A stretch of DNA of 64,000 nt, taken from contig NZ_OY782569.1 in NCBI RefSeq assembly GCF_963677875.1, positions 62,001 through 126,000 on the forward strand, given 5' to 3'. The DNA comes from Thiomicrorhabdus sp. GTDB lineage: Bacteria; Pseudomonadota; Gammaproteobacteria; Thiomicrospirales; Thiomicrospiraceae. Of this stretch, positions 5,576 through 28,972 are shown piece after piece. Position numbers and translations under genes: made by a program. The stretch's first letter is position 1, and every line of letters begins with the position of its first letter. The notes under the pieces are model-generated. The model searched no databases. It was not told the origin of the DNA and saw nothing but the letters and a program-made list of their open reading frames with translations.

Positions 5576-7141
5576 TTAATTTTTTTTGCTCTCTTTCCGG
5601 ACGATGTGGCGATAGGAATCGTTTACGGATAAGATCCCGGCATCTGTCAATCTGGATAGAGCAATCTCTTCTGTATTCAGATAGCGCAGGATGTGCCGGG
5701 CAAGCTCAAGAACCGGATCGGAATCCGCTGCTTCAGCCATGTAGACATTTAGCAAAAAACGAGCGGCGCGGATGTTTTGATCCAGTTGCGGAAGAGGTAC
5801 GACAGGGGTGCCGTTATCCGCTGCGCTGACCAGACCGCCTCGAGGGTGCCGGAAATAGCGTTGAATGAATTCAACTGCTTGCCGGGCTTTCTTTAAAGCG
5901 ACGGTGTCTCCTTTCGAATGATACAGATGCAACCAGGCGATTCCCATATTGAGTGTGTCGGCCAGATAAGGGCCGGCGTAGTCTATCCGGTCATGTCGAT
6001 AGCCGCCGCGCCCCAGACGTCGACTCTGCTCGACCCATTTGAATGCCTGTTCTGCTCTGTGGAGATACTGTTCCTGACCGCTTGCATCATACAAGTGCAG
6101 AAAAGCATCGATTGCCAAACCGTTTTCGGCCGCGTACTGATGCTTGTCGATTTTTGGAATTCCTTGTTGAAGCCGGGTTTGCAGGTCGGCCTGAAAATAA
6201 TCATGTGCCTTGCTTCCCTGTTTCAGGTCGGCATCCTGAGAAGTGTAAAAACCTCCGTTTGCGTCACTTAAAAAACGGTTCAGGTAGCTTGCGACTGCCT
6301 GGGCCGCTTCAAGATATCCGGGATTATTCAGTTGTCGGTAAGCGGTCGCATAAATCAAAATATAGTTGGCCTGCATCGCCATGATTTTTTCATAGTGGGG
6401 ATGTTCCCAGTCGCCGTGCGTCGAATACTGATAAGCCCCGCCGAATACCGGATCGATTAATGCCATGGCATTGTCTAATGTTAAGGTTACGCGTTTTCTC
6501 GCCGACGAATCGCCGTCGGCACTTAGTTTCAAATCCCATAGAACGGCTTCCGGATCAATGAACTTCTGTTTCAGTTTCAGGCTGCCGAGAATTGAGTCAA
6601 AACTGGATAGATGCCGCTGTTGCAATGTTTTCTCCAGTCTCGAATCGATTTGTGGTGATTCGGCCAAGTTGTTTGGAAAGGCGAGAGTTTTTTCCTGGGA
6701 GTGCGGACGGTTTTTTATTTCCGTTAGCAATGCTAAAAATTGATCTGCGCGAATAAAGCCTGCCTGCTTATGCAGTTCTTGACCATCCGGCGTTAAAATG
6801 ATCGTGGCCGGCCAGCCCCAATCACGATAACGCTCTGCCAGATCCGGCCTGGCATCGTGGTCGACTTTCATTGCGACATAATGTGAATTCAGTTCGGCAG
6901 AGACACGCGGATCGGCGTAGGTTTTCTGATCCATTACATGACACCAGTGACACCAGTTGGCCTTCAAATCGAGCAGAAGAAGTTTCTTTTCCTGTCTGGC
7001 TTTTTCAAAGCTCTGTCGGTTGTACTCCTGCCATTCGACTTGAGCGTAGGCGGTATGTGCTGAGAGCAGAACGAAAAGCAGCACTCCTTTGATGCTTTGA
7101 TTGGACAGAGGGGTGCGAGTGAATCGCTTTAAAATTGTCAT
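5576..7141 (-). CDS. Exported thioredoxin-domain protein (DUF255/YyaL-like)
   Basis: A 521-residue protein. Residues 1-33 look like a signal peptide (ends TAYAQ). A thioredoxin-fold domain with a CHWC redox motif (NWCHWCHVM, about residue 64) follows, then a cis-Pro region WGWPATI. The remaining roughly 350 residues resemble the alpha/alpha-barrel of the DUF255/spermatogenesis-associated protein 20 family. The gene follows the anti-sigma gene after 47 bases on the same strand and may be co-transcribed with the sigma/anti-sigma pair, suggesting an envelope thiol- or metal-linked stress role. The activity of the barrel domain is not known. Confidence 0.85.
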   Translation of the reverse strand: MTILKRFTRTPLSNQSIKGVLLFVLLSAHTAYAQVEWQEYNRQSFEKARQEKKLLLLDLKANWCHWCHVMDQKTYADPRVSAELNSHYVAMKVDHDARPDLAERYRDWGWPATIILTPDGQELHKQAGFIRADQFLALLTEIKNRPHSQEKTLAFPNNLAESPQIDSRLEKTLQQRHLSSFDSILGSLKLKQKFIDPEAVLWDLKLSADGDSSARKRVTLTLDNAMALIDPVFGGAYQYSTHGDWEHPHYEKIMAMQANYILIYATAYRQLNNPGYLEAAQAVASYLNRFLSDANGGFYTSQDADLKQGSKAHDYFQADLQTRLQQGIPKIDKHQYAAENGLAIDAFLHLYDASGQEQYLHRAEQAFKWVEQSRRLGRGGYRHDRIDYAGPYLADTLNMGIAWLHLYHSKGDTVALKKARQAVEFIQRYFRHPRGGLVSAADNGTPVVPLPQLDQNIRAARFLLNVYMAEAADSDPVLELARHILRYLNTEEIALSRLTDAGILSVNDSYRHIVRKESKKN

Positions 7142-7188: not shown

Positions 7189-7896
7189 TTAGATGCGAAC
7201 CGCATTTCCCAGATAAACGGGGGGCGAAGTTGGTTGACCTGTTGGCGAGCCCCCTTTGGGTTCAATGGTGACGGCAAAAGTATGGGCCTTGCTTAGGCGG
7301 GTTCTGATTTGATCGGAGAGCTGGATCGTCGCTTTGCCGCTTTGTGGCAAAATTCCCAGAGAGTTCGGTGCTTCCTGATCGGAGGCAAGCATCCACAATT
7401 CATAATCCTGATTCTCAGCCAGCGGATGGTCGCGGAGAATTTTTACATTCAGCAGACCGTCGTCGCTGAATTGCAGAAGCCAGCCGTCTTGTTGCTCTCC
7501 ATTTTGCACTACGGCCAACATCTGGGGTTGTGTCAGCGGTGGTGTCTGCCAGATATAAGTTAGGAGCGAGACGCTGAAAAGCGAGGCGGCCATAGCCCAG
7601 CCATAGGCAAAACGGCGGTTACGTTGTTGACGCAATTCAATCGGTGTCAGCTGTTGTCCGTAACGTTCGCGAAACAGACGTTTTTCCAATTGCTTCCAGA
7701 CCAGAGGGGAAGGTTGGGTTTCTTCGACGGAAAGAGCCAGCAAATGCCATTTTGCCTGAGTGGCATTCAGCCTATGGCTTAATTGCGGAAACTGAACGAG
7801 CAGTTTGCGAAACCGTTTTCTGGCGGTGTGCCCCATCAGGCCCATAACATAGTCATTGCAAAGAGCTTGTTGTAATTGTGGATGTTGGTAATTCAT
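7189..7896 (-). CDS. RskA-like membrane anti-sigma factor
   Basis: A 235-residue protein: cytoplasmic N-terminal domain (about 1-110), one membrane segment (AYGWAMAASLFSVSLLTYIW, about 122-141) and a periplasmic C-terminal domain ending in the RskA-type pattern (FAVTIEPKGGSPTGQPTSPP). No HxxxCxxC zinc motif is present, so it is not a ZAS-type anti-sigma. Start chosen at ATG 7896, which overlaps the sigma stop as ATGA, rather than GTG 7908. It should hold the partner ECF sigma inactive until an envelope signal triggers release; the signal is unknown. Confidence 0.88.
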   Translation of the reverse strand: MNYQHPQLQQALCNDYVMGLMGHTARKRFRKLLVQFPQLSHRLNATQAKWHLLALSVEETQPSPLVWKQLEKRLFRERYGQQLTPIELRQQRNRRFAYGWAMAASLFSVSLLTYIWQTPPLTQPQMLAVVQNGEQQDGWLLQFSDDGLLNVKILRDHPLAENQDYELWMLASDQEAPNSLGILPQSGKATIQLSDQIRTRLSKAHTFAVTIEPKGGSPTGQPTSPPVYLGNAVRI

Positions 7897-8468
7897 TTCT
7901 GCATACACTCCCTGACGCTTTGCATGGCCCGGCGAATCCAGGATTTGACCGTGCCTAAAGGGCGTTGAAGCTTTTCAACCATTTCCGAATGGGAAAAACC
8001 GTAGTAGTAAGCCATAAGTAAACTTTTGCGTTGTTCCTGCTGCAGTTGCTGCAAACACTCCTGTAACAGGCGCAATTCAAACGGATCGAGCGAACCCCAC
8101 TCTTCATGCAGAACGTCTCTGGTGTCCAGCGTTTGCAGCGGGTCTGCTTCGACGGCCTTCATTTTGTTTTGGTGGCGACCCTCCCGGCGCAGAATATCCA
8201 GACAACGATTGCGCAAAATGGTTACCATCCAGGCAAAGGGGTGGCCTTTTTCCACTGCGTAATCAGCCGCTTTGTACCAGATGTGTACAAAGGTTTCCTG
8301 AAGTGCTTCTTCTGCCAGTCCCCGATCTCTCAAAAGATAGAGTGCCGAGGTGAGCAGTTTTGGCGAAGCCTGATCATACAACTCCTTGAGAGCTTCTTGT
8401 CGGCCGTCTGCACAGGCAGATAAAAGACGGGTTAAGGGCGCTTCGTCCAGCATTTTTGGCTTCTCCAT
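7893..8468 (-). CDS. ECF-type RNA polymerase sigma factor
   Basis: A 191-residue sigma-70 family protein of the extracytoplasmic-function class. Region 2 includes the helix DRGLAEEALQETFVHIWYKA and HPFAWMVTILRNRCLDILRR. Region 4 includes EQRKSLLMAYYYGFSHSEM and RPLGTVKSWIRRAM, the DNA-recognition helix for the -35 element. It overlaps the anti-sigma gene by 4 bases (ATGA), typical of coupled pairs. A good -10 box (TATAAT) lies 20-25 bases upstream of the start, so the pair may have its own housekeeping promoter as well as reading through from the upstream KCG-peptide gene. Confidence 0.92.
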   Translation of the reverse strand: MEKPKMLDEAPLTRLLSACADGRQEALKELYDQASPKLLTSALYLLRDRGLAEEALQETFVHIWYKAADYAVEKGHPFAWMVTILRNRCLDILRREGRHQNKMKAVEADPLQTLDTRDVLHEEWGSLDPFELRLLQECLQQLQQEQRKSLLMAYYYGFSHSEMVEKLQRPLGTVKSWIRRAMQSVRECMQK

Positions 8469-8551: not shown

Positions 8552-8605
8552 CGCCTGGTTTGCAGGCGATAAGATGGCTTTTCGCCGTTTGTGCGACGAA
8601 AAGCC
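8552..8605 (-). terminator. Two tandem hairpins between the KCG-peptide gene and the sigma gene
   Basis: Read on the minus strand, GGCTTTTCG (8605-8597) pairs with CGAAAAGCC (8584-8576), and then CGCCTG (8568-8563) pairs with CAGGCG (8557-8552). Neither is followed by a clear U-run. They lie just after the small secreted-peptide gene and before the sigma gene, where partial termination or RNA 3'-end protection would let the peptide mRNA exceed the downstream genes. Confidence 0.5.
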
Positions 8606-8614
8606 GTTTCGAAA

Positions 8615-8890
8615 TTATTTACTGGCACCGCATTTGGCTGCACCACATTTGCTTTCAGCCGGTTTGCTCGAACCGCATTTTGCGGCGCCGCATTTGCTCT
8701 CCTCGGTTTTGCCGGCACCACATTTGGCGGTACCACATTTTCCTTCTTCAGGTGAGTCGGACATGGCCAGCTGGCCGTTACTGATCATTTGGAAGCCAAA
8801 TGGATTGGTTTGCGCCTGCGCGGAAAAACTTCCGAACATAAGCAGTGAAGAAATCGCCAAAGCAGTCATGGTACGATTCATGGTTTTCAT
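8615..8890 (-). CDS. Secreted KCG-repeat peptide, HvfA-like metallophore precursor
   Basis: A 91-residue protein: signal peptide (about 1-26, ends SAQA), a 22-residue linker, then EEGKCG followed by repeated K-C-G units giving six cysteines in three pairs of the form KCGxxKCG separated by charged spacers of about 7 residues (GKTEES, SKPAES). This matches the layout of HvfA-family oxazolone/thioamide RiPP metallophore precursors, in which Cys residues of EGKCG-type units are modified to bind copper. AGGGAG precedes ATG 8890 by 6 bases. The usual partners (DUF692 and DUF2063 proteins) are not adjacent; instead an ECF sigma/anti-sigma pair follows. Modification is inferred, not visible. Confidence 0.75.
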   Translation of the reverse strand: MKTMNRTMTALAISSLLMFGSFSAQAQTNPFGFQMISNGQLAMSDSPEEGKCGTAKCGAGKTEESKCGAAKCGSSKPAESKCGAAKCGASK

Positions 8891-9230
8891 AAGTAATCTC
8901 CCTATGGGTTTTAAAGCAGAGTTGTAAAGCATCAGACCGGAGGCTTGGGGTAAAAGTTGTGTTTCAGCCGGTCTCATTAATCTTTACGCTGCGTAAAAGA
9001 AAATGGATGCACTAAAAGAGAAATTATTTTTTCTTTTTTTATTTCACGGGATGACGAAAAAATTATGGTGATCGTCTGTCGGGTAAAAGAGATGCCATCG
9101 GAGTGTCATAAAAAGGTAATAAAGCTGTTATGTTTTTGTTAACTACCGTTTTTAGAATATAGGCGTTATTTAATATCCACGCTCCGGTCGCCGTGACTGG
9201 GTGTTCTGAGGAAAGAAAGGAATATAACCT
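8891..9230. other. 340-bp divergent intergenic region
   Basis: Lies between the KCG-peptide gene (minus) and the duplicated lipoprotein gene (plus), so it must hold promoters for both. The minus-strand side contains TGAAAC about 75-80 bases before the peptide start, which could be part of an ECF-type -35, but I could not place a convincing -10 at normal spacing. The part around 9001-9060 is A/T-rich. No gene is seen. Confidence 0.35.
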
Positions 9231-10358
9231 ATGCGTTCATTATTTACTTTAGGTGCGCTTGCAAGCGCGATCGCTCTGGCTGGTTGTCAGACACAACCTG
9301 CACAGCAATCCACCCAGGCTCAAGCGGCTAAAGTCGAAACTTCCGCTCAGGTTGCTGTTGATCCGAGCAAGCCTGAAATTTCCGCTCCGACGTTTACCGA
9401 TACGGCTCCGAAGCAAGCGGCAGTCGCTGAAAAAGGTACCGATCTTTTTGAAGTACACCACGAAGGACGTATCTATTTCTTCTATGATTTCCCAACCTAC
9501 CAGTCGTTCCTGGATGTGGGGGAAACCGCTTTCCGTTTGACGCGCATTGCGGCGGGCCCAAAAGGTGAAACTGTGGTTTTCGGTCTGACCAAGGCAGACA
9601 AGAAAAAAGCCGGTGATACGCCGGCAGCCATGATCATCGACGGTAAGGCTGAGGCAAAAACGCCTTTCTACGGCGAGATTATGAAGCATGGCCGCATCTA
9701 TGTTTTCGATAATAAAAAAGATATGGATTTCGTCCGCGAAGTCGGTGAACCGGCGTATATGTATACTGAAATCGGCGCTGGCCCGAAAGGTGAAACACTG
9801 GTTTTCGTTTTGAATAAAGGCAACAAAAAGAAAAAGCCGGTTGCTTTGATCGAGGCGTTTGAAAAACTGCATCCGAAAAAAGCCGAGCCGGTTGCGGAAG
9901 TGGCCGAAAAAGGTACTGATCTTTTTGAAGTACACCACGAAGGACGTATCTATTTCTTCTATGATTTCCCAACCTACCAGTCGTTCCTGGATGTGGGGGA
10001 AACCGCTTTCCGTTTGACGCGCATTGCGGCGGGCCCAAAAGGTGAAACTGTGGTTTTCGGTCTGACCAAGGCAGACAAGAAAAAAGCCGGTGATACGCCG
10101 GCAGCCATGATCATCGACGGTAAGGCTGAGGCAAAAACGCCTTTCTACGGCGAGATTATGAAGCATGGCCGCATCTATGTTTTCGATAATAAAAAAGATA
10201 TGGATTTCGTCCGCGAAGTCGGTGAACCGGCGTATATGTATACTGAAATCGGCGCTGGCCCGAAAGGTGAAACACTGGTTTTCGTTTTGAATAAAGGTAA
10301 CAAAAAGAAAAAGCCGGTCGGAATGATTGAAGCTTTCCACAAAATGCATGCAAAGTAA
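9231..10358 (+). CDS. Lipoprotein with four related domains from a recent internal duplication
   Basis: A 375-residue protein. The lipobox ends LAGC (Cys19), followed by a Gln/Ala-rich linker. Then come two almost identical blocks (about residues 67-203 and 226-362). Each block has two related subunits of about 50 residues sharing HxGRIYxF, a middle V-G-E-x-A segment and a GPKGET-x-VF strand, followed by Lys-rich linkers. No known domain is recognised; the subunits recall small ligand-binding alpha/beta repeats such as YHS-like domains, but without their signature. It is probably outer-membrane anchored and periplasmic. A strong terminator follows, and it is divergent to the KCG-peptide gene. 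Confidence 0.85.
   Translation: MRSLFTLGALASAIALAGCQTQPAQQSTQAQAAKVETSAQVAVDPSKPEISAPTFTDTAPKQAAVAEKGTDLFEVHHEGRIYFFYDFPTYQSFLDVGETAFRLTRIAAGPKGETVVFGLTKADKKKAGDTPAAMIIDGKAEAKTPFYGEIMKHGRIYVFDNKKDMDFVREVGEPAYMYTEIGAGPKGETLVFVLNKGNKKKKPVALIEAFEKLHPKKAEPVAEVAEKGTDLFEVHHEGRIYFFYDFPTYQSFLDVGETAFRLTRIAAGPKGETVVFGLTKADKKKAGDTPAAMIIDGKAEAKTPFYGEIMKHGRIYVFDNKKDMDFVREVGEPAYMYTEIGAGPKGETLVFVLNKGNKKKKPVGMIEAFHKMHAK
9429..10317 (+). repeat. Near-perfect 412-bp direct repeat, period 477 bp
   Basis: Bases 9429-9840 and 9906-10317 are identical by eye except at two positions (9440 C versus 9917 T; 9821 C versus 10298 T), both synonymous. The unit is in frame (159 codons). Such identity points to a very recent duplication or ongoing gene conversion. 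Confidence 0.95.
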
Positions 10359-25699: not shown

Positions 25700-26224
25700 T
25701 CAATGTCCGCCACCACATTTCATCTGTCCGCCACATTTCATTTGCGCACCGCATTTCATCATCCGTTTAACCGATTTGATCGGCATGCTGACGGGTTTAC
25801 GGCTTCCATCGGAAAACTCCAGTTCAACCAGAACCTGGTTACCGGATTTCAGCGGCTCGACTGGTTGAATCAGCATGATATGCAATCCACCGGGTTGTAA
25901 GATGGTTTCGCCGTGAGCAGGAATCTGAATAAATGGAATTTGCCGCATGCGCATGACACCGCCGTCATTGGTGTGGGTATGCAGTTCTACCGTCTGTGCC
26001 GCTTTCGAATGGGCATTGACCAGCTTGATGTCCTGAGCGCTGAGATTCTTAAGGGTCATAAAACTGGCGCTGGCGGGGGCTCCCGGGGGAATTTCACGTG
26101 CAAACGCCTGGCTGACCTGAATTTCGTCGGCCTGGCTGGCGAAAGCCGGGAAGGAAAACAGAGCTATTCCGGCCGAGAATGCCACAGCAGCGATGGATTT
26201 TTGCAAGAAATGAGATGGGATCAT
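25700..26224 (-). CDS. PCu(A)C copper chaperone with C-terminal MKCG repeats
   Basis: A 174-residue periplasmic copper chaperone. The signal peptide ends near residue 29 (AFASQ). The PCu(A)C Cu(I) site is visible: the first His in VELHTHT, Met residues in GGVMRMRQ, and the His/Met pair in GGLHIML. After the usual domain end (about residue 150) comes an extension RMMKCGAQMKCGGQMKCGGGH with three Met-Lys-Cys-Gly units, each spaced 7 residues, and a final His. Such tails are not part of the standard domain. It overlaps the SCO1 gene by 4 bases (ATGA) and should deliver copper to cytochrome oxidase or hold it in the periplasm. Confidence 0.93.
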   Translation of the reverse strand: MIPSHFLQKSIAAVAFSAGIALFSFPAFASQADEIQVSQAFAREIPPGAPASASFMTLKNLSAQDIKLVNAHSKAAQTVELHTHTNDGGVMRMRQIPFIQIPAHGETILQPGGLHIMLIQPVEPLKSGNQVLVELEFSDGSRKPVSMPIKSVKRMMKCGAQMKCGGQMKCGGGH

Positions 26225-26829
26225 GGTATGTCCTTCTGATAGTGTTCAATGGCATGAATGAATTGCTGCGGCGTGGTGGCGTGCGGTAGCTGAGTTTTCA
26301 GGGCTCCCTGCGCATCGACGACGTAGGTGAATGCCGAATGGTCGACGGCATAGTTTTCCGGGTTTCGTTCATCTTCAACTTTGGCATATACCACGCCATA
26401 GCGCCGGGCGATTTCAGCAATCGTTTGCGGATCTCCGGTCAGGCCGAGGATGTTTGATTCGAAATAGTCTGCATATTGCTGCAGTCTTTCCGGGGTGTCC
26501 CTTTGCGGATCAACGGAAACAAACAGAATTTGCAGTTTACGTTTTTGCTCGTCGCTTAACTGATGATAGGCGACCGACAGATTTCCGAGGTTGGTCGGGC
26601 AGATGTCAGGACAGAAGGTATAACCGAAATAGATCAGTACCAGCTTGCCTCGATAATCGCTCAGTTTGTGCGCACCGTCTGCGGCCTGCAGAGCGAAATC
26701 ACCGCCTTGAGGTTTCTCTGAGGTGACCAGCGGCATCCGGTGTGTGTTGTTCTGCGGGCCGGGCCAGAAAATAATGGCGGCGCCGATGGACAGAGCCAGC
26801 ACAATTGAAATAATTGTCCGTAGTTTCAT
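26221..26829 (-). CDS. SCO1/SenC copper chaperone
   Basis: A 202-residue protein: an N-terminal membrane anchor (about 5-24), then a thioredoxin-like fold. It has the CxxxC copper/redox motif in YFGYTFCPDICPTNLG (about residue 81) and the conserved His in DHSAFTYVVD. SCO proteins insert copper into the CuA site of cytochrome c oxidase. The 4-base overlap with the PCu(A)C gene and the upstream copper receptor give a coherent copper-acquisition operon. Confidence 0.95.
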   Translation of the reverse strand: MKLRTIISIVLALSIGAAIIFWPGPQNNTHRMPLVTSEKPQGGDFALQAADGAHKLSDYRGKLVLIYFGYTFCPDICPTNLGNLSVAYHQLSDEQKRKLQILFVSVDPQRDTPERLQQYADYFESNILGLTGDPQTIAEIARRYGVVYAKVEDERNPENYAVDHSAFTYVVDAQGALKTQLPHATTPQQFIHAIEHYQKDIP

Positions 26830-26944: not shown

Positions 26945-28972
26945 TTAGAATGTCACATTCAATCTGGCCCATAGAGTACGGCCCGGTTCGTAAACCTTAT
27001 AGGTGTTTCCAGAGGTTACGTCAACACGGTTCAGATAGTTCTCGTAGGCATGATCCAACAGATTGTCGATTCCGCCGGAAAAGGTTGTCTGCTTGTTCAG
27101 ACGGTAGTTTCCATACAGATCGACGGTACTCCAGGCTGCAGTTTCCAGTTCTCCGTATTCCGAGTTGACCGTATCCTGCTCGGTTGAGAAATTGAAACGG
27201 CTTCCCGCCTTCCAGTTTCCACCATGCATTTCCGCATAGAGATTTCCGTTGATCGGTGCGATATTCGACAAATTACGTCCGTCGGAAAGGTTGCGGCCTT
27301 TGGTCAGAGTGGCTTGAGCGCCGAAGCTCCAGGTTCGGTTTGGCGTCCATTCGGTGCTGGCTTCGAGGCCGTAAATTTCCGCGTCTACATTAACATAAAC
27401 CGAGGTGTTGTCGGTTTTGCTGTTGGCACTTTGGTTTTTTGCCAGATCACGAAGGATATAGTTATCGGCGCGATCGTAGTAAGCACTGACGGACCAGCGA
27501 TGACTACCGTTATGCTGGCTTAAGCCGAAATCCAATTGATTGTGTTCTTCGGATTTCAGATTCGGATTACCGATCCAGGCTCCACTGCCGCCTTTGGCAA
27601 TAAACAGTTCAGTGGCATCCGGGTGGCGGTAAGTCCGGCTCAAACCGGCAAAAGCCTTTAAATTACCTGCGTATTCACGCTCGTAGCGGATCAAACCGTT
27701 CAGATTATCACTTTGATTGCGGGTTTCGCCGGAATAGTTTCCATAACTGGCGTAGAGATTTTGCGCGGTGGTTCCGCCGGCACCGCCAACCGTTGTACGG
27801 AGGGCATTGGCTTCAAAATTGTCGTAGCGCAGTCCCATAATCACTTTTTGGCGGTCTTTGAAAAAAGAGGTGGATTCAACAAAGGCGCTTTTGGTTACAC
27901 TCTCGACCTGTGGCCACATGTAAAAAGCCGCAGCGCCACTGCTCATGTTGTACAGAGTAGCTGATTTGTCGACATTTTCGACCTGTAAACCATAGTCCAG
28001 TCGGGTGTGGCCAATCTGGCTGCTCAGTTGCAGTTTTGCGCCGCGTGTCTGTACATTTGTCCGGGTTTCCATCGGTGTTCCGGTGGCCGGCAAGGTGCGC
28101 AGCTCAAAGTTGTTCATCACATGCTCGACATCCGAATAGTAAATGTCGAAGTCGAGTTCCTGTACGTGTTTCCCCAGTTTGCTGTTACGGTATTGAAGGC
28201 GAGTGGTATCGCCGTCGGACAGAGGTGCATCCATTTTCGCGCCTTGGAAAAGTGCATCTTCAACCAGACTGCGTTCGTATGAAAGCTTCAATTCCTGGTG
28301 GTCGTCCGGGGTCCAGCCGAGATCGATATGACCCTGCTGGCTTTCGTAACTGGTATTCACGCGATCTCCATTTCCGTCGGTATAGCTTTCGGCGGATTTT
28401 CTCGATCCTTGCAACAGGATGTAACCCTGATCGCCGCCGGCGGCAACCTCGGCGTTCAAGTCTTTACGGAGTCCGTTTGAACTGGTGCCAAGATTGATTT
28501 CGCCTTGATAGGATTTTCCATCTTGGAACGTCGGTGCGCTCCGTTCGAAGAGAACGGTTCCGCCGGTTCCGCCACTTCCATGAGTGACGCTTTGGACACC
28601 GCGAATGACGGTAATGCGATCATAGCTTCCGAGTTCGGTGTAGGCGGTGGGTGGGTCCATGCGATTGGGGCATCCGCCTTCAATTTTGGCACCGTCTAAA
28701 AGCACGTTGAGTTGGGAGGCATTCTGGCCGCGGATGTTCAGATCGACACCGTGGCCGCCCATTCTGGAGGCATCTACCCCCTGCATCTGGCGCAGAGCGC
28801 TTCCGGTTTCGGAATTGGCCGTATTCAGGAGTTGTTCGGCAGTGAGTGTTTCACTGTTGGCTTGTTCGAGTTTTCCTTGAACTTCGACGGGTTGGATTTG
28901 CGTTTCTTCTGCCAGAACCGGCAGACTCAGGGCTGAAATAAGCGCGATCGGCAAGGGCTTAAGCTTAAACAT
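26945..28972 (-). CDS. TonB-dependent copper receptor (OprC/NosA-like)
   Basis: A 675-residue outer-membrane receptor. The signal peptide ends near LPVLA. The plug domain starts at QVQGKLEQA-like residues (IQPVEVQGKLEQ) and contains SALRQMQGVDASRMGGHGVDLNIRGQNASQLNVLLDG and the motif GGCPNRMDPPTAY, which is typical of OprC-type copper receptors. The beta-barrel ends in the usual aromatic residue (RLNVTF). The downstream SCO1 and PCu(A)C genes agree with copper import. The substrate is inferred from subfamily and neighbours. Confidence 0.9.
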   Translation of the reverse strand: MFKLKPLPIALISALSLPVLAEETQIQPVEVQGKLEQANSETLTAEQLLNTANSETGSALRQMQGVDASRMGGHGVDLNIRGQNASQLNVLLDGAKIEGGCPNRMDPPTAYTELGSYDRITVIRGVQSVTHGSGGTGGTVLFERSAPTFQDGKSYQGEINLGTSSNGLRKDLNAEVAAGGDQGYILLQGSRKSAESYTDGNGDRVNTSYESQQGHIDLGWTPDDHQELKLSYERSLVEDALFQGAKMDAPLSDGDTTRLQYRNSKLGKHVQELDFDIYYSDVEHVMNNFELRTLPATGTPMETRTNVQTRGAKLQLSSQIGHTRLDYGLQVENVDKSATLYNMSSGAAAFYMWPQVESVTKSAFVESTSFFKDRQKVIMGLRYDNFEANALRTTVGGAGGTTAQNLYASYGNYSGETRNQSDNLNGLIRYEREYAGNLKAFAGLSRTYRHPDATELFIAKGGSGAWIGNPNLKSEEHNQLDFGLSQHNGSHRWSVSAYYDRADNYILRDLAKNQSANSKTDNTSVYVNVDAEIYGLEASTEWTPNRTWSFGAQATLTKGRNLSDGRNLSNIAPINGNLYAEMHGGNWKAGSRFNFSTEQDTVNSEYGELETAAWSTVDLYGNYRLNKQTTFSGGIDNLLDHAYENYLNRVDVTSGNTYKVYEPGRTLWARLNVTF

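Follow-up and report, generated by a model that had tools for sequence, protein, structure and literature searches.

An HvfA-like KCG-repeat peptide kept without maturation enzymes in a clade of Thiomicrorhabdus, probably as a plain-thiol copper buffer

Introduction

The closest described systems to the locus analyzed here are HvfA/oxazolin and FonA/fontiphorin (captophorins; Buf_EGKCG), in which an exported precursor carries KCG repeats in CX4C pairs. According to the available text of PMC12668002, oxazolin contains 5-thiooxazoles and modified EGKCG peptides bind copper; in the case of oxazolin, the oxazolone/thioamide chemistry that an earlier note on this DNA had assumed for the family has by now given way to 5-thiooxazole (PMC12668002 and PMC13419390, partial texts). 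FonBC was reported to have modified, once and so in part, an AKCGA double-repeat substrate (PMC12668002, partial text), and HvfBC prefers a precursor that carries its Sec signal (PMC13419390, partial text). How precursors with an export signal avoid export before modification is stated as a question in the accessible part of PMC12452194, which also regards precursors from MNIO-less genomes as possibly active unmodified, or defunct. Orphan precursors are already in print, as an unexplained rarity: of the 2583 genomes that have Buf_EGKCG precursors in Table 3 of that paper, as far as its text was available, 67 contain no MNIO.

The window is a 64,000-nucleotide stretch of a Thiomicrorhabdus sp. 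genome (contig NZ_OY782569.1, positions 62,001 to 126,000 of the forward strand), and it encodes a KCG-repeat peptide. The peptide resembles the precursors of oxazolin and fontiphorin in having a putative export signal, in carrying KCG repeats in CX4C pairs and in matching NF050137, but its genome has neither an MNIO nor a DUF2063 gene, most of its units have no EG before KC, and its neighbors are a sigma/anti-sigma pair and a DUF255 protein. Like bacterial metallothioneins and the Cys-rich copper-binding proteins of the periplasm, the window peptide would, on our reading, act through plain thiolates; it is set apart from both, by description, in that its repeats originate in the HvfA family. 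It shares with the orphan Buf_EGKCG precursors of PMC12452194 (partial text) the setting of an MNIO-less genome and differs from them, as described there, in that the state is clade-wide, comes with paralogues and an operon of its own, and involves a different export signal and altered residues around the motif. We propose that the peptide is probably a former HvfA/oxazolin (captophorin) RiPP precursor that has stayed in service after the loss of its maturation enzymes, as an unmodified, thiol-based copper buffer.

Results and Discussion

An orphan KCG-repeat peptide gene

The features of the locus are collected in Table 1. The peptide is the 91-residue, six-cysteine product described in the earlier note, and on the plus strand the same interval is interrupted by stops. 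Judged by eye, from a basic start, a hydrophobic core and AQA ahead of QTNPF, the first 26 or so residues resemble a Sec signal. Behind them, QTNPFGF and a short linker lead to the three KCGxxKCG pairs. All six cysteines stand in KCG, in steps of five residues within a pair and 10 between pairs; EG precedes the cysteine in one of the six units, the first, which still reads EGKCG. The signal has no match to the NCBIfam TAT model and no RRxF[LM] motif.

Table 1. Coordinates of the features of the window
Feature	Position	Strand	Remarks
KCG-repeat peptide gene, HvfA-like, orphan	8615-8890	minus	91 aa, 6 Cys; 91 codons plus stop
Signal peptide, residues 1-26	8813-8890	minus	Sec-like, no twin arginine; cleavage site placed by eye
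KCG region, residues 51-88, three KCGxxKCG pairs	8627-8740	minus	sequence and profile match
RNA hairpin, candidate, directly 3' of the peptide stop	8576-8605	minus	G014 has a hairpin at this place too, unlike in sequence
Inverted repeat AGACCGG...CCGGTCT	8934-8974		region upstream of the peptide gene; similar one in G014
ECF sigma factor, r2/r4 domains	7893-8468	minus	Pfam/profile domains
RskA-type anti-sigma factor (RskA_C)	7189-7908	minus	downstream of the ECF sigma factor
Secreted DUF255/Thioredox_DsbH protein, CHWC motif	5576-7141	minus	operon membership confined to G000 and G014
PCu(A)C copper chaperone, C-terminal tail with three KCG units	25700-26224	minus	121.7 bits
SCO1/SenC protein	26221-26829	minus	145.9 bits; upstream of the PCu(A)C-KCG gene
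TonB-dependent receptor, copper type	26945-28972	minus	444 bits, slightly below the cut-off of 472.45

The likeness to HvfA drawn in the earlier note holds for the repeat family and not for the narrow equivalog. NCBIfam NF050137 (HvfA-family KCGExKCG repeat) matches the peptide with an E value of 2.2e-11 and 43.2 bits (cut-off 19.5), and the HvfA equivalog NF050188 gives 36.5 bits, below its cut-off of 95. Three other precursors also stay under the NF050188 cut-off, two of which adjoin an MNIO gene and score 14.8 and 29.0 bits, so the equivalog is a narrow test.

An orthologue in the related genome G014 is 88% identical to the window peptide and has the same gene order; the RpoD proteins of G014 and the window genome (G000) are 95% identical. 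Judged by the NF050137 match and this syntenic orthologue, the gene is more than a chance reading frame. Between G000 and G014 the dN/dS of the peptide is 0.063/1.16 (NG86) or 0.086/0.58 (YN00), and by part (NG86) 0.047/1.33 for the mature peptide and 0.106/0.88 for the signal, values from a single pair with dS near saturation. Within these bounds of one pair near saturation, the orthologues are under purifying selection, unlike a decaying gene.

Absence of the maturation enzymes

The earlier note had raised the possibility that the peptide is matured in trans by an enzyme encoded elsewhere, and had proposed a genome search for DUF692 and DUF2063 genes. Neither was found in the whole window genome, which is 99.99% complete in 9 contigs: the MNIO/DUF692 model (PF05114) gave no candidates, and none of 13 candidates for DUF2063 (PF09836) passed. 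Because both are missing from so complete a genome, maturation in trans is not supported. The lack of a DUF692 homologue is one of the two findings that, taken together, the earlier note would have accepted as refuting the RiPP idea.

Among the 62 family genomes, PF05114 and PF09836 both scored above cut-off in one and the same set of 32; a further weak DUF2063 match in G075 contains stops and lies under the cut-off. Within the genus, 18 of the 32 genomes have an MNIO. Seven of the 14 without it (G000, G011, G013, G014, G020, G025 and G027) carry KCG peptides, 11 in all, and the KCG peptide searches gave no match in the remaining seven. A class-wide draw of 232 genomes placed the KCG domain in 69 and the MNIO in 140, and two of the 69 (G000 and G182) had no MNIO, which agrees with the published 67 of 2583. 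Precursors without an MNIO are rare across the class, and the Thiomicrorhabdus clade therefore stands out as a hot spot for them. Genome G182, from another family of the class, has two KCG peptides and no MNIO match (L238 7052-9860 and L237 6914-7171), and its peptides keep SKCGEGKCG motifs, a point against the reading proposed here.

We weighed the possibility that the peptide is nevertheless modified, either by an enzyme outside PF05114 and PF09836 or by an MNIO that is absent from the assembly. The sequence of the window peptide does not forbid modification, because FonBC modified the AKCGA double-repeat substrate in part (PMC12668002, partial text), and the EGKCG of the first window unit is a second counterpoint to a case made from sequence. 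Separate loci do exist, since G018, G066 and G067 encode Tat-type KCG peptides at places other than that of their own MNIO gene. Against maturation in trans, PF05114 drew a blank in G000 and likewise gave no match in the six related orphan genomes, two of which (G020 and G025) are single contigs; the reading frames adjoining both G000 copies of the peptide include no MNIO-like or other obvious maturase, some having been checked by family search and the rest by eye. We therefore regard maturation by such an enzyme as unlikely. The thiol-only metal buffer that the earlier note had given as its other option is now the better supported reading, as both maturation genes are absent, and we infer that the window peptide binds metal and is left unmodified.

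Orphan peptides compared with those of MNIO-bearing genomes

We compared the 11 orphan peptides of the seven genomes with 27 peptides from 27 of the 32 MNIO-bearing family genomes. No peptide passed the filter in G009, G016, G063, G064 and G068, and two short peptides beside the G018 MNIO were left out (fewer than three CG; one with RRDFLKL, the other with RRGFM). By coordinates, 23 of the 27 adjoin the MNIO and those of G002, G018 (L047), G066 and G067 do not.

The orphans are essentially one clade, so that the counts that distinguish the two groups are not independent trials and describe one evolutionary change: the RRxF[LM] twin-arginine motif is present in 25 of 27 peptides of MNIO-bearing genomes and in 0 of 11 orphans, with identical figures for the NCBIfam TAT model (E up to 0.05); EG (or DG before K) stands ahead of the cysteine in 189 of 197 units against 5 of 74; Lys directly precedes the cysteine in 182 of 197 against 74 of 74; NPF lies ahead of the repeats in 20 of 27 against 11 of 11; and GY is found in the linker in 24 of 27 against none of 11. 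A Fisher value on such counts is accordingly not to be taken as one from independent events. The orphans have kept the cysteines, their Lys and Gly neighbors and NPF; of the features that accompany the MNIO in this family, they lack the Tat signal and GY and have mostly lost EG before KC.

The exceptions among MNIO-bearing genomes are G073, of another genus, and G002. The latter has a Sec-like, EG-less A-KCG peptide at the oxoprolinase locus (L152 5425-6003), with a run of N inside the frame, and a truncated MNIO gene at the edge of another contig. As G002 combines an MNIO with such a peptide, a Sec signal plus A-KCG is no proof of a missing enzyme; and because this genome, of the other clade, has its Sec-like copy at the same locus, we assign no direction to the change between Tat and Sec.

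Tat signals of the RRDFLKLAGA type on HvfA-like precursors, in place of the Sec signals in print, were seen at L048 6798-7109, L069, L062, L006, L028 and other loci. None of the readable KCG peptides of eight MNIO-bearing class genomes outside the family (G038, G039, G044-G048 and G051) has RRxF. Neither Tat signals on MNIO substrates nor the Tat-Sec contrast was found in the freely accessible literature searched. The words 'twin-arginine' and 'Tat' are absent from PMC12452194, PMC12668002 and PMC13419390; 'bufferins' and 'twin-arginine' occur once each in one copper-efflux paper, and among the papers listed there was no relevant pairing of MNIO and twin-arginine, the one paper with both being about a moss mitochondrion. 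The Tat signals on precursors of the MNIO-bearing relatives bear on the question of premature export raised in PMC12452194 (partial text). Signals of this type would keep a precursor cytosolic until its maturation is complete.

Operon partners and copper context

The ECF sigma factor, the RskA_C anti-sigma factor and the DUF255 protein all lie downstream of the peptide gene on the same strand, and family matches confirm these neighbors, which the earlier note had named. Strong homologues of the window anti-sigma factor (E 2.6e-29 or better) were found in just seven of the 62 family genomes, and these are the seven that carry KCG peptides but no MNIO; G008 and G024 have weaker homologues.

The orphan peptides occur in three settings. 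The sigma/anti-sigma pair accompanies the peptide beside a pfp-type gene in G000, G014, G011, G013 and G025; in G020 and G027 the pair stands without an adjoining peptide. In the second setting, the peptide is found with a DoxX gene (76-84 bits) and another ECF sigma factor (G013, G020, G025 and G027), and in the third it stands alone at the old cluster place (G000 and G014). The four DoxX-linked copies share a conserved ECF-like promoter motif, TGTAA[GC]-N14..19-CG[TA]C, which lies ahead of these copies only, in 4 of 30 upstream regions against a chance expectation of 0.11 in 30 by simple shuffles, the pattern having been written after those sequences were viewed and two of the four copies (G020 and G027) being near-identical. 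In G182, one of the two KCG peptides lies near a DoxX gene (71 bits) with one gene between, and this recurrence in an unrelated MNIO-less genome suggests a role of DoxX for the peptide itself and not in maturing it.

Two further associations were tried and rejected. No promoter motif common to the sigma-linked copies was found; an initial ECF-like pattern had its single match at G000_C8. Nor is the sigma/anti-sigma pair generally associated with KCG peptides, since, of at least 80 matching loci, the 80 listed include such a peptide only at L157, on G014's own contig; no such link was seen outside the genus among the loci listed.

We propose that the window peptide would be exported unfolded through Sec and cut after AQA, so that about 65 residues reach the periplasm. 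There the cysteine pairs, five residues apart, would act as plain thiolates that bind Cu(I), or perhaps further thiophilic metals, and thereby buffer it. Envelope or metal stress probably induces the operon through the adjoining ECF sigma/anti-sigma pair. The DUF255 thioredoxin, a periplasmic protein encoded in the same direction, may protect the thiols from oxidation by keeping them in the reduced state, a service that an unmodified peptide would need and a thiooxazole peptide would not. The candidate hairpin directly behind the peptide gene appears stable and could determine how much peptide is made relative to sigma factor.

The same neighbors lend themselves to a different reading, in which the peptide is unmodified but serves as a thiol redox or oxidative-stress buffer, or as a ligand of another metal, under the ECF sigma factor. 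The sigma/anti-sigma pair and the DUF255 thioredoxin next to it fit such a role, as does DoxX, which is stress-linked according to PMC12452194 (partial text), beside four orphan copies. A copper role is favored by the modified relatives, which are reported to bind copper (PMC12668002, partial text), and by the KCG units on the PCu(A)C copper chaperone of the window. PCu(A)C chaperones are described with tails that are His/Met-rich copper sites (PMC13006917, partial text); the window chaperone likewise has a short C-terminal extension, but its tail carries three KCG units, whereas the known tails in the available text of that paper are only His/Met-rich. The genes for SCO1/SenC and for the copper-type TonB-dependent receptor lie upstream of the chaperone gene and add to this copper context. 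Coming from an MNIO-less genome, the KCG tail offers the strongest hint that KCG units may bind copper when unmodified. We judge a role apart from copper to be improbable, and prefer the buffering of copper by plain thiolates.

Outside the orphan genomes, G018 also contributes to the copper context: a Tat-type KCG peptide (L047 6927-7277) is encoded at the end of an RND heavy-metal efflux operon, at a locus other than that of the G018 MNIO. The pump is of the AcrB family and has a CusB-like subunit with a heavy-metal-binding domain.

Retention of the peptide in one clade

A tree of RpoD and DnaG, rooted on other genera, was built from 31 of the 32 genus genomes (G006 was left out) and six others. 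One clade (bootstrap 66) unites genomes G000, G014, G013, G025, G011, G020, G027 and G024, none of which has an MNIO, and its sister (bootstrap 92) holds the 18 MNIO-bearing genomes of the genus. In seven of the eight members KCG peptides are kept without either maturation gene, suggesting that the peptide now works with plain cysteines.

The second G000 copy, a paralogue with 10 cysteines in regular repeats (contig C5, L037 8610-8948), occupies the position at which the genes for the precursor, the MNIO and DUF2063 are found in related Thiomicrorhabdus. In G000 and G014 an orphan Sec-type KCG peptide lies between the DJ-1/PfpI and hydantoinase/oxoprolinase genes; in G003, G007, G015, G026, G028 and G031 a Tat-type peptide and then an MNIO adjoin PfpI. 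Two short Tat-type peptides adjoin PfpI in G018, and in G008, G009, G016 and G022 some 5-6 kb separate PfpI from the MNIO. The 1.5-kb flanks at the PfpI/oxoprolinase locus hold no KCG peptide or MNIO in G005, G011, G013, G019, G020, G021, G024, G025 and G027. A Sec-type peptide without enzymes at the old cluster place in G000 and G014 means that, at one locus, the peptide has outlived its enzymes.

Such a copy, syntenic between G000 and G014, would also be expected of a decaying relic whose enzymes are lost and whose function is gone, and elsewhere in the genus the MNIO and the peptide were indeed lost together (G005, G019 and G021, plus the incomplete MAGs G004, G006 and G010). Even so, a functionless relic is the least probable of the alternatives, given frames that are intact in seven genomes, a low dN/dS in the mature part, as many as 10 cysteines in regular repeats, the conserved ECF-like motif ahead of the four DoxX-linked copies and the sigma/anti-sigma pair stably alongside in five genomes.

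This is most likely a clade in which a copper RiPP became a plain-thiol peptide. A fuller account, in which the clade turned the RiPP into a plain-thiol copper peptide, changed its export route as well, lost EG, multiplied the peptide to as many as two loci in a genome and, in G000 at any rate, has KCG units on PCu(A)C, is one that we put forward tentatively. If the plain-thiol reading is true, the clade and its sister would be a natural control experiment for a young RiPP class, with close relatives that have or lack the thiooxazole enzymes and that both keep the peptide; the comparison would separate the contribution of the modification from what the KCG thiols do alone.

Divergent from the window peptide gene is a lipoprotein-like gene (9231-10358), for which the Pfam search gave no convincing match. 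It has an orthologue in G014 and contains a direct repeat of 300 bases, the two copies being 99% identical with a start-to-start distance of 477.
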